Assembly (NCBI RefSeq): GCF_000381885.1
Contig: NZ_KB907209.1
Span: 82,737-146,736 of the forward strand
Source of the DNA: Actinomadura atramentaria DSM 43919
Lineage (GTDB): Bacteria; Actinomycetota; Actinomycetes; Streptosporangiales; Streptosporangiaceae
DNA length: 64,000 bases
Direction: 5' to 3'
The notes beneath the pieces are model-generated. The model was given only the letters and a program-made list of their open reading frames with translations. It did not search any database and was not told the DNA's origin. Shown piece after piece: positions 54,666 to 63,419 of the stretch. The position numbers and the translations under genes are program-made. Position 1 is the stretch's first letter, and the number at the start of each line of letters is the position of its first letter.

Positions 54666-55598
54666 ATGCGCTCTCGTTTCTGGGCCATCGCCGGGACGGC
54701 GATGATCCTTCTTCCGGCCGCCTCCGCGTGCGGCACCGACGATCCGTCGTCGGCGGCCGACAAGGAGGCCGTGTCCGGCGCCGCGACGGCGGCCGCTGTC
54801 GTCCAGAAGATCGGCAGGGACGACGCGGCCGCCGGACGGCTGCCCGACGACGTCAAGAAGTCCGGAACGATCACGACGGGCATTTCGACCGTCGGCGCGC
54901 CGTTCACCTTCCTCGCGTCGGACAACAAGACGCAGATCGGCCTGGAAGTGGACCTGCGGGACGCCGTCGCCCGCGTGCTCGGCGTCAAGGCCGTCACCAC
55001 GACGACGAAATGGGACTCGCTGCTCGTCGGCGTGCAGACCGGCAAGTTCCGCGTCGCCCAGGGCAATTTCGGGGTGACCACCGACCGGCTGAAGACCTAC
55101 GACTTCGTCACCTACTACAACGACGGTTTCGGCTTCCTCGCCAACCCCACGACGAACCAGCCGACGATCGCGAAACTGACCGACCTGTGCGGCAAGAAGG
55201 TCGGAACCTCGACGGGCACGAGCTTCATCGGCGTCCTGCAGAGCCACGAGGGCGACTGCAAGAAGCTCGGCAAGGAGCCCTGGAAGATCTCGACCTATCC
55301 CGACCAGGCGTCGTTCACCCTCGCGCTCGACCAGAAGCGCATCGACCTGTTCCTGCGCAGCGCGATCCGCGCGCAGTACGACGCCAAGCAGCAGCCCGCC
55401 AAGCTCGCGTTCAAGGGCACGCTCAACGCCGAGCACGTCGGATTCGTGCTCAAGAAGGGCGACCCGCTCGGGCCCGCGCTGCAGGCGGCCGTGCAGAAGC
55501 TCATCGACGACGGAAGCTACGCCGGAATCCTCAAGGCCTGGGGCCTGGAATCCGGCGCCGTGCAGACCTCGCAGCTCAACCCGCCCGGCTTGGACTGA
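54666..55598 (+). CDS. Family 3 extracellular solute-binding lipoprotein (amino acid ABC importer)
   Basis: 310 residues. Signal peptide with lipobox LPAASAC, lipid-modified Cys22. The mature part has the family 3 pattern: SGTITTGISTVGAPFTFLASDN, GLEVDLRDAVARVLGVK, LLVGVQTGKFRVAQGNFGVTTDR and GKKVGTSTGTSF. Such proteins bind amino acids or small polar solutes outside the membrane and deliver them to the permease. ATG 54666 fits the signal peptide (GATGGGA upstream). The permease and ATPase are at 61670 and 62658, at the other end of the same operon. Confidence 0.88.
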   Translation: MRSRFWAIAGTAMILLPAASACGTDDPSSAADKEAVSGAATAAAVVQKIGRDDAAAGRLPDDVKKSGTITTGISTVGAPFTFLASDNKTQIGLEVDLRDAVARVLGVKAVTTTTKWDSLLVGVQTGKFRVAQGNFGVTTDRLKTYDFVTYYNDGFGFLANPTTNQPTIAKLTDLCGKKVGTSTGTSFIGVLQSHEGDCKKLGKEPWKISTYPDQASFTLALDQKRIDLFLRSAIRAQYDAKQQPAKLAFKGTLNAEHVGFVLKKGDPLGPALQAAVQKLIDDGSYAGILKAWGLESGAVQTSQLNPPGLD

Positions 55599-55625
55599 CG
55601 CCCGGACCCGCCACCGGAGGCGATC

Positions 55626-61669: not shown

Positions 61670-62749
61670 ATGTCCGAAACCGCCCCACCCGACTCCGCAC
61701 CCTCTGCTGCGGACCCGCCCAACACCGCCCCGCCCGAACCCACGTCGGCCGAAGGCGTTCCGCGTGATGCGGCTGTGGGGGATGCCGCAGCGTCCGGGCG
61801 CACGGAATCCGAGTCGCCGTTGCGGATCGTTCCGACGCGGCGGACCGGGCAGTGGGTGTCCGCGGCGGTCGTGCTGTTCCTGATCGTGTTCGCCGCACAG
61901 TCGCTCGCGACGAATAAGGCCATCCAGTGGGACGTCGTCGCGTCGTACTTCACGAGCCGGTCCATCGTGCGCGGCCTCTACATGACGCTGTGGCTGACGG
62001 GCCTGACGTTCGCGCTCGGCTTCCTGCTCGGCACGGTCCTCGCGCTGTGCCGCATGTCGTCGAACTTCGTGCTGCGGACCGCCGCGCTCGGCTACATCTG
62101 GCTGTTCCGCTCCACGCCGCTCCTGGTGCAGCTCCTCGTCTGGTTCAACATCGGCGCGCTGTACCCGAAGCTCGGGCTCGGCATCCCGTGGGGTCCGACG
62201 TTCGTGCAGACGGACGTCAAGGACCTCATCGGCGCGACGACCGCCGCGATCATCGGGCTGACCGTCCACGAGGCCGCGCTGGCCGCCGAGATCGTCCGGG
62301 GCGGCATCCTCGGGGTGGACCCCGGGCAGACGCAGGCGGCGCAGGCGCTCGGCCTCGGCCGGTTCCGCACGCTGCGGCGCATCGTCCTGCCGCAGGCGAT
62401 GCGGACGATCCTCCCCAACGCCGGCAACCAGATCATCAGCCTGCTCAAGTCCACGACGCTCGTCAGCGTGATCGGCGTCGGCGACGTCCTCTACTCGGCC
62501 GAGCTGATCTACGGCCGCAACTTCCTGATCATCCCGCTGCTGCTCGTCGCGACGCTCTGGTACGTCGTCGTCGCGTCGGTGCTGTCGGCGGGCCAGTACC
62601 TGCTGGAACGGCACTACGGGCGGGGCGCAGGCTCCGGCCCGAGGCGAAGGAACCCCCATGAGCGCCGGAATCTCGATCCGCGGCCTGCACAAGTACTTCG
62701 GCTCGGCGCACGTGCTGCGCGGCATCGACCTGGAGGTGGCGGCCGGTGA
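61670..62749 (+). CDS. Polar amino acid ABC transporter permease
   Basis: 359 residues. A 60-residue Pro/Glu/Ser-rich N-tail and one extra helix precede the permease core: GLYMTLWLTGLTFALGFLLGTVLALCR, FRSTPLLVQLLVWFN, and the EAA loop AAEIVRGGILGVDPGQTQAAQALGLGRFRTLRRIVLPQAMR. This is the HisMQ-like fold. The frame runs 92 bp into the ATPase gene; the basic tail (from about residue 328) is probably read-through of an ancestral stop, since family members end near LERHYGRG. Partners are the 54666 lipoprotein and the 62658 ATPase. Confidence 0.86.
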   Translation: MSETAPPDSAPSAADPPNTAPPEPTSAEGVPRDAAVGDAAASGRTESESPLRIVPTRRTGQWVSAAVVLFLIVFAAQSLATNKAIQWDVVASYFTSRSIVRGLYMTLWLTGLTFALGFLLGTVLALCRMSSNFVLRTAALGYIWLFRSTPLLVQLLVWFNIGALYPKLGLGIPWGPTFVQTDVKDLIGATTAAIIGLTVHEAALAAEIVRGGILGVDPGQTQAAQALGLGRFRTLRRIVLPQAMRTILPNAGNQIISLLKSTTLVSVIGVGDVLYSAELIYGRNFLIIPLLLVATLWYVVVASVLSAGQYLLERHYGRGAGSGPRRRNPHERRNLDPRPAQVLRLGARAARHRPGGGGR

Positions 62750-63419
62750 GGTCGTCTGCCTGATCGGGCCGTCGGGCTCGGGGAAGTCGACGCTGCTGCG
62801 CTGCGTCAACCACCTGGAGAAGGTCGAGGCGGGAACGGTCCGCGTCGGCGGCGACCTCATCGGCTACCGGCGGCACGGCGACGCGCTGCACGAGCTGCGG
62901 CCCGGGCACGTGGCGCGGCAGCGCGCCGGTATCGGGATGGTGTTCCAGAACTTCAACCTGTTCCCGCACTTCACCGTGCTGCAGAACATCGTGGAGGCGC
63001 CCGTCGCCGTGCGGCGGCTGTCGCGCGCGGACGCCGCCGAGCGGGCGCGGCGGCTCGTCGCGCGCGTCGGGCTCGCCGGACGCGAGGACGCCTACCCGCG
63101 CCAGCTCTCCGGCGGGCAGCAGCAGCGCATCGCCATCGCCCGCGCGCTCGCGATGGAGCCCGCCGTGATGCTGTTCGACGAGCCGACGAGCGCGCTGGAC
63201 CCCGAACTCGTCGGCGAAGTCCTCGGCGTGATGCGCGACCTCGCCGAATCCGGCATGACGATGGTCGTCGTCACGCACGAGATGGGGTTCGCGCGGGAGG
63301 CCGCCGACCGCGTGGTGTTCCTCGACGAGGGCCGCGTCGTGGAGTCGGGCCCTCCGGCCGAGGTGCTGACCGCGCCCCGGCACGAGCGCACCCGCGCGTT
63401 CCTCGACCGCGTCCTGTGA
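62658..63419 (+). CDS. Polar amino acid ABC transporter ATP-binding protein
   Basis: 253 residues, the standard GlnQ/HisP size. Walker A GPSGSGKST (37-45), Q-loop in MVFQNFNLFPHFTVLQN, signature LSGGQQQR, Walker B VMLFDEPTSALDP and H-loop VVTHEMGFA. Powers amino acid uptake. ATG 62658 lies within the last 92 bp of the permease frame with a weak GAAGGAA upstream, so translational coupling is likely. Last gene of the operon. Confidence 0.93.
   Translation: MSAGISIRGLHKYFGSAHVLRGIDLEVAAGEVVCLIGPSGSGKSTLLRCVNHLEKVEAGTVRVGGDLIGYRRHGDALHELRPGHVARQRAGIGMVFQNFNLFPHFTVLQNIVEAPVAVRRLSRADAAERARRLVARVGLAGREDAYPRQLSGGQQQRIAIARALAMEPAVMLFDEPTSALDPELVGEVLGVMRDLAESGMTMVVVTHEMGFAREAADRVVFLDEGRVVESGPPAEVLTAPRHERTRAFLDRVL

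Follow-up and report, generated by a model that had tools for sequence, protein, structure and literature searches.

The 64,000-bp window analysed here is a continuous stretch of the Actinomadura atramentaria DSM 43919 genome (contig NZ_KB907209.1, positions 82,737–146,736), and coordinates given without a locus name refer to it. Seven co-directional open reading frames (ORFs) lie on its + strand between 54,666 and 63,419 bp, separated by intergenic gaps of 27, −23, −4, 4, 7, and −92 bp. Gene families were assigned from Pfam and NCBIfam profile matches, applying the curated NCBIfam cut-offs. The first gene (54,666–55,598 bp) encodes a family 3 substrate-binding lipoprotein (SBP; PF00497, SBP_bac_3, 73 bits) and is followed by the gene of an alpha-oxoamine synthase-type pyridoxal phosphate (PLP) enzyme of the PRK07505 subfamily (AOS; 55,626–56,894 bp; Aminotran_1_2; NF005697, 537 bits against a cut-off of 342). 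The third gene (56,872–58,080 bp) codes for a predicted Bcr/CflA-like exporter of the major facilitator superfamily (MFS; PF07690, 124 bits; TIGR00710, 139 bits, short of the cut-off of 201). Next come a carboxyltransferase of 3-methylcrotonyl-CoA carboxylase (MCC) type (CT; 58,077–59,681 bp; PF01039, Carboxyl_trans, 466 bits) and a biotin carboxylase with a C-terminal biotin carrier domain (BC; 59,686–61,662 bp; Biotin_carb_N, CPSase_L_D2, Biotin_carb_C, and Biotin_lipoyl), which carries the motifs GGGGKGM at 162 and EAMK at residue 615. The last two genes encode an ABC importer permease of polar amino acid type (61,670–62,749 bp; PF00528, BPD_transp_1, 89 bits; HEQRo_perm_3TM above its cut-off) and an ATPase of amino acid type (62,658–63,419 bp; PF00005, ABC_tran, 117 bits; best model TcyN, 345 bits, under its cut-off of 406). 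By these Pfam and NCBIfam matches, SBP, permease, and ATPase form a complete polar amino acid ABC importer within the operon. All seven genes were found in identical order and with 80–94% identity in Actinomadura rayongensis (locus L001), and the order is also kept in loci L048 and L049 as far as these reach (loci L048–L052 extend only about 1.5 kb past the AOS gene). The seven-gene co-directional operon described in the initial annotation was thus verified in both its position and its gene order.

A four-gene core shared by distant lineages

To survey the linkage of these genes, one genome per GTDB species was scanned with six short peptide patterns, which yielded 39 related loci and represents a sample rather than a full census. 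AOS, CT, and BC genes occurred together in 33 of the 39 loci (hereafter cassettes), distributed among Actinobacteria (Actinomadura, Streptomyces, Kitasatospora, Amycolatopsis, Actinospica, Microtetraspora, Nocardia, and Rhodococcus) and Betaproteobacteria, with Chromobacterium, Paraburkholderia, Burkholderia, and Trinickia as the other cassette-bearing genera. The MFS gene of the window type stood beside AOS in 27 of the 33. The six loci without a cassette belonged to Actinomadura (L020, L033) and Mycobacterium (L034, L035, L038; 46–48% identity), or were a partial match (L039). The four core genes also recur, with their order unchanged, on a plasmid of Pantoea agglomerans (AOS 60%, MFS 49%, CT 70%, and BC 51% identity).

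An even sample was provided by 392 genomes from the genus in which most Streptomyces are placed, where AOS relatives were detected in 28 genomes (29 matches). Twenty of the 29 loci were examined, that is, all six close and 14 of the 23 distant ones (L133 and L139 end at contig ends). MFS, CT, and BC genes adjoined AOS in 6/6 loci at an identity of at least 67% and in 0/14 at 53% or less. The 6/6 is not independent of the 33/39, as the genomes are largely shared, and its worth lies in the even denominator. The association of AOS with the carboxylase proposed in the initial annotation therefore recurs well outside the window. The argument offered there for the unity of the block, namely that the importer is split to its two ends, did not hold, since the family 3 importer surrounds the core only in Actinomadura, and the linkage across phyla takes its place. 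The core unit is AOS–MFS–CT–BC.

The distribution of the AOS–carboxylase module is sporadic. An AOS relative at E ≤1e-60 was present in 3 of 394 genomes of the class, including that of A. atramentaria itself, and in 6 of 65 genomes of the genus. Among the latter, the cassette genes accompanied AOS in the A. atramentaria genome, G035, and G039, and were not seen within the short loci of G006, G031, and G050. Pairwise distances of the core proteins were strongly correlated (AOS–CT, r = 0.96, n = 29, with none of 2,000 shuffles as high; AOS–BC, 0.95, n = 27; AOS–MFS, 0.98, n = 23), partly because of the kinship of the hosts.

The PLP enzyme and the linked carboxylase

The products of alpha-oxoamine synthases range from cofactors and lipids to signals and antimetabolites. 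The PRK07505 subfamily, to which the AOS belongs, is functionally unnamed. The scores of the established enzymes were all far under their curated cut-offs: 141 versus 426 bits for BioF (7-keto-8-aminopelargonate [KAPA] synthase, TIGR00858), 94 versus 493 for Kbl (glycine C-acetyltransferase, TIGR01822), 87 versus 428 for the CqsA-type autoinducer synthase (NF005526), and 70 versus 339 for 5-aminolevulinate synthase (TIGR01821); serine palmitoyltransferase was rejected likewise. The PLP enzyme is accordingly neither BioF nor Kbl, the two identities that would have spoken against the initial annotation. Residues Lys250, Asp215, and His145 were invariant in 29/29 cassette rows, and from the superfamily we take Lys250 to be the PLP-binding lysine, with His145 and Asp215 as its partners. 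By analogy with the family reaction, AOS is predicted to condense an amino acid with an acyl-CoA decarboxylatively.

The four nearest solved chains, all of Alb29 type, scored 420–422 bits and every other chain at most 84. Alb29 (PDB 8XHA; 422 bits over residues 8–392), from the albogrisin pathway of Streptomyces albogriseolus, falls on a long branch within the cassette-bearing part of the AOS tree, which was built by a quick method and contains long branches. The excerpt of PMC11906848 gives L-glutamate and acyl-CoAs as the substrates of Alb29 and does not mention a carboxylase, a comparison limited to the description of the pathway. The ketomemicin pathway (KtmB and the ATP-grasp ligase KtmD) resembles the cassette in joining an amino acid and an acyl group by a stand-alone PLP C-acyltransferase outside the logic of nonribosomal peptide synthetases (NRPSs), and an amino acid ligase also accompanies six of the 33 cassettes. 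It differs in that, according to the excerpt of PMC11943689, its acyl part comes via an aldolase, a dehydratase, and a dehydrogenase, not a biotin carboxylase. None of these three enzymes, nor an amidinotransferase, is encoded by the seven genes of the window. The dynaplanin (DynZ) cluster, which is likewise small and built around a PLP C-acyltransferase, was missed by antiSMASH, showing that small AOS clusters can elude genome mining; its phenylacetyl unit is proposed to derive from phenylalanine, and the available text has no carboxylase (PMC9239090). These three pathways are the closest systems, and as far as the excerpts go, none is described with a carboxylase. No described cluster with this AOS–carboxylase pair was found in the open-licence papers searched.

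More distant AOS homologues occur in other settings. Those of 45–50% identity are frequent on Rhizobium and Sinorhizobium plasmids, where in loci L086 and L087 a response regulator gene adjoins the homologue and there is no carboxylase. A Rhodococcus plasmid cluster (L085, 7,989–17,197 bp) combines a 49% homologue with genes for a 2-oxoglutarate-Fe dioxygenase, a PGM1-related peptide ligase, a carrier protein, an acyl-CoA dehydrogenase, and an NRPS.

The carboxylase is MCC-type, as the initial annotation stated: the best score of CT was obtained with the MCC beta subunit of Pseudomonas aeruginosa (674 bits, aligned over 1–534 including the long N-terminal helix region), and the scores were 598 bits for human MCC beta, 420 for geranyl-CoA carboxylase (GCC), and at most 284 for the main group of propionyl-CoA carboxylases. 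It is, however, not a plain MCC. In a tree of 67 CT rows, the 32 cassette CTs formed one clade with 100/100 support, apart from the housekeeping MCCs; L021 and L037, having fragment CT matches, are absent from this tree, for which the program warned of long branches meeting. The CTs of betaproteobacterial cassettes are 76–79% identical to that of the window. A further MCC beta of 57–60% identity was present in 8/8 cassette genomes checked, and a housekeeping MCC placed here by chance was rejected on the strength of the separate clade and the separate copies. The A. atramentaria genome has a 57% copy, which groups with the housekeeping rows, and a 48% copy, in which three residues near the MCC/GCC switch are missing and which lies on a long branch beside the cassette clade. 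In the class, 230 of 394 genomes contain an MCC-like CT, and among the matches listed only that of the window exceeds 60% identity.

Conserved CT positions, some of which may line the substrate pocket, are altered in the cassettes; rows L042–L046 are excluded from these residue counts. Phe191 (human MCC numbering) tells MCC from GCC (PMC4673880, excerpt). The window CT has F163 at the equivalent position, where the cassette CTs as a whole have F (13/32) or L (19/32), never Gly, and the housekeeping rows have F (30/30); F or L at this site predicts a small-acyl pocket. Tyr422, tied to 3-methylcrotonyl-CoA recognition by the title of a reference in PMC4673880, is replaced by L421 in the window and by L or F in 32/32 cassette CTs, and is Y in 30/30 housekeeping rows. 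Moreover, T330, A434, I170, and M433 are fixed in 32/32 cassette CTs, while the housekeeping rows have F (30/30), W (29/30), Q (30), and L (30), respectively, at the equivalent sites. Ser187 is retained in 26/32. Taken at the level of the alignment, the site looks like an MCC-sized one that has been retuned.

These data bear on the possibility that the chemistry is the same with another acyl-CoA, that is, the carboxylase makes 3-methylglutaconyl-CoA as an ordinary MCC does, and AOS uses it, thereby tapping leucine breakdown. The proximity of CT to MCC by score, the retention of Ser187, and the bulky residue at the Phe191 site speak for it. Yet the separate MCC beta would make a second plain MCC redundant, Tyr422 is lost throughout, and the accessory genes described below suit acetoacetyl to crotonyl chemistry instead. 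We consider this explanation rather improbable. In general, the cassette carboxylase resembles MCC (LiuB/LiuD) in subunit make-up, full-length alignment, and the bulky residue at the MCC/GCC switch, and differs from it in its clade, in altered conserved residues, and in an operon with no leucine-breakdown genes.

Accessory genes, importers, and regulators

A gene for 3-hydroxyacyl-CoA dehydrogenase adjoins 15 of the 33 cassettes; the one examined scored above the cut-off of a 3-hydroxybutyryl-CoA dehydrogenase subfamily. Thiolase genes adjoin four, all in Chromobacterium (4/5 loci of the genus), in L011 at only 52 bp upstream of AOS. One cassette thiolase was examined and lies above the pcaF cut-off, which may point to a dicarboxylic 3-ketoacyl-CoA rather than acetoacetyl-CoA. 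On the Pantoea plasmid, FadB-like and FadA genes are divergent from AOS. A 3-hydroxyacyl-CoA dehydrogenase or a thiolase was found in 0/20 control stretches; these came from 10 genomes of the class, with no Proteobacteria, and the queries were drawn from cassette loci. Since these two enzymes neighbour the cassettes, a crotonyl-type feed is suggested. 3-Ketoacyl-acyl carrier protein synthase III (KAS III) genes stand beside five of the 33 cassettes and L-amino acid ligase genes beside the six mentioned above, a count that omits a weak match in L017 (93 bits, 9.6 kb away). The accessory set fits a short chain built up to an enoyl-CoA and an amine product that could be capped by an amino acid. 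Neither KAS III nor the ligase is among the seven genes of the window.

In two loci, a BioY biotin transporter gene was observed beside the cassette (L003, 17,158–17,799 bp; L004, 17,137–17,781 bp). It could be taken, together with the membership of BioF in the AOS superfamily and with the five KAS III genes, which recall BioZ-type priming, to mean that AOS acts like BioF a second time and yields a compound similar to KAPA, either a biotin precursor or a biotin antimetabolite. BioY may, however, merely supply the biotin-needing carboxylase, the operon has no other biotin gene, and a further bioF-like gene lies on contig 9 of the A. atramentaria genome (370 bits, also under the BioF cut-off). 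A role related to biotin is therefore very improbable.

The importers vary among lineages, the amino acid importer being an addition of Actinomadura and the others having peptide-type importers or none. All six Nocardia cassettes are followed by a peptide/nickel-type importer (SBP_bac_5 type), the SBP of which matches the nickel and staphylopine SBP models under their cut-offs. The Rhodococcus erythropolis cassette has both SBP_bac_5 and SBP_bac_3, and in this species (L025, 16,836–20,802 bp) genes for an NtaA/DmoA-type monooxygenase and two binding proteins come soon after the cassette. Two of the three Amycolatopsis cassettes have two different importers about 4–10 kb upstream. In Trinickia, an SBP_bac_5 gene lies 6 bp past BC on the opposite strand and, together with genes further on for a TonB receptor, TonB, ExbB, a tetratricopeptide repeat protein, a second SBP_bac_5 protein, and a permease, makes up an apparent outer-to-inner membrane uptake set (L022, 16,089–20,597 bp; L111, 42–7,023 bp). 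The peptide-type importer of the Pantoea plasmid looks interrupted in its SBP_bac_5 gene (L084, about 3,700–5,220 bp), which is unannotated and lies in two pieces around a stop. Polar amino acid SBPs hold the alpha-ammonium group of the ligand with an Asp in the second lobe. The corresponding stretch of the window SBP, LFLRSAIRAQY, has no Asp where AncQR has one, nor do the SBPs of L012 and L025, and this may be a trait of the subfamily.

That importers of unrelated families were recruited several times suggests a shared need to import the product or its amino acid. For this reason we keep as the main rival that the carboxylated amine of the cassette is exported by the MFS protein and re-imported, perhaps with metal, as a metallophore would be. 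In its favour are the differing importer families in Actinomadura, Nocardia, Rhodococcus, Amycolatopsis, Trinickia, and Pantoea, the resemblance of the Nocardia SBP to the nickel and staphylopine models, and the excess of importer matches (13/33 cassette loci at E ≤1e-10 versus 1/20 controls). These 13 include, however, two weak edge matches (L014, L032) and six loci of Nocardia alone, the queries were taken from cassette loci, and the cassettes of Streptomyces, Kitasatospora, and Chromobacterium gave no strong importer match. Opine-type metallophore systems consist of a nicotianamine-type synthase and an opine dehydrogenase. Neither is among the seven genes, where Pfam and NCBIfam also detected no opine synthase or siderophore synthetase. 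The regulators beside the cassettes are of MarR, TetR, XRE, and LuxR types, with no metal-sensing family. We consider export and recapture unlikely.

Two regulators flank the operon of the window. Upstream, on the + strand (53,519–54,124 bp), there is a MarR-type gene with weak MarR-family matches, the homologue of which in the same position of L001 (69% identity) has a MarR Pfam match; it may control the operon. At the far end, a TetR-type gene (63,459–63,965 bp, − strand; weak TetR-family matches) is convergent with the operon and has an 86% homologue in the same position in L001. A promoter-like block was read from the + strand sequence at 54,584–54,630 bp, comprising the imperfect inverted repeat TTTCCTAGTAGGGAAA (54,584–54,599 bp) immediately 5′ of a −35-like TTGACT, and the putative promoter TTGACT–18 bp–TACTCT (54,601–54,630 bp). 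L001 partly conserves the stretch TAGG.AAACTTGAC through the start codon, and of the inverted repeat only the right half is clear there. Either the MarR-type or the TetR-type regulator might use the repeat as an operator.

Further upstream, genes resembling those of acyl-CoA breakdown were noted at 45,821–53,040 bp (an enoyl-CoA hydratase, two acyl-CoA ligases, a ChsH2-type OB-fold protein, and a thiolase-like protein). Membership of the acyl-CoA ligase and thiolase-like genes (50.3–53.0 kb) in the operon unit was rejected, as no homologue of them was found in L001. The window also contains a penicillin-binding protein gene with a MecA_N domain (9,876–12,068 bp), a large AftD-type arabinofuranosyltransferase gene (27,239–31,666 bp; PF11847, 707 bits), of a family known from mycobacterial arabinan synthesis, and a PorA-family gene (35,317–36,456 bp; PF11271).

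Proposed route and its implications

Starting from gene content and order, the conserved linkage, the separate carboxylase clade, and its changed residues, which are all directly observed, we infer with a probability of about 0.5 that the operon makes and exports a carboxylated alpha-aminoketone, with AOS using an acyl-CoA that has first been carboxylated by the MCC-type enzyme of the same operon. In alpha,beta-unsaturated acyl-CoAs, the position carboxylated by enzymes of MCC type is the gamma carbon (PMC4673880, excerpt). In the first step, BC would load CO2 onto the biotin carrier, and CT would transfer it to the gamma carbon of a small enoyl-CoA. The favoured version is the conversion of crotonyl-CoA to glutaconyl-CoA, a best guess guided by the thiolase and 3-hydroxyacyl-CoA dehydrogenase genes at other cassettes and by the loss of the Tyr422 equivalent from CT. 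AOS would then join the acyl-CoA to an amino acid, releasing CO2 and CoA as in the family reaction, and for the amino acid L-glutamate is the nearest precedent, set by Alb29. Such a condensation would yield R-CH(NH2)-CO-CH=CH-CH2-COOH, an amino-enone acid resembling a dipeptide, which the MFS protein is predicted to export. In Actinomadura only, the ABC importer is predicted to bring in the amino acid or to recapture the product. The order of steps outlined in the initial annotation stands, with substrates and product kept conditional.

Several observations weigh against this reading. The operon of the window has neither a thiolase nor a 3-hydroxyacyl-CoA dehydrogenase gene and would have to draw on general metabolism for its acyl-CoA, and both genes are missing from 14 of the 33 cassette loci. 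Two solved chains labelled propionyl-CoA carboxylase scored 650 and 638 bits with CT and share the alignment pattern of MCC, so the substrate cannot be read from such labels alone. The acyl-CoA used by Alb29 itself may not be a carboxylated one. Finally, Actinomadura L020, L033, and their kin have an AOS of 65% identity and no carboxylase; the AOS reaction is consequently not always carboxylase-dependent. The AOS of L020 and L033 nests in the cassette part of the quick tree, and the carboxylase was probably lost in their lineage. Both loci (in L020, 8,724–13,751 bp) contain a divergent acyl-CoA dehydrogenase gene, AOS, and an L-amino acid ligase gene, and L020 also has an MFS gene. This set is a possible second way of feeding the same AOS.

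A more elaborate form of the proposed route is tentative and, on balance, doubtful: the cassette would be a mobile module, in which a private gamma-carboxylase converts crotonyl-CoA to glutaconyl-CoA for AOS, and the exported product, an electrophilic enone mimicking a dipeptide, is recaptured in several lineages by the amino acid or peptide importer that each has recruited next to the cassette. If this is true, a small peptide-like natural product would be made and cycled in a new way, outside the logic of NRPSs, ribosomally synthesized and post-translationally modified peptides, and polyketide synthases. For the MCC fold, the cassette carboxylases amount to an experiment of nature in the change of substrate. 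The linkage of an AOS of this clade to a carboxylase of the cassette clade offers a simple rule for genome mining and one testable pathway, and the carboxylase-coupled AOS branch common to Actinobacteria and Proteobacteria is a pointer to a metabolite yet to be found.

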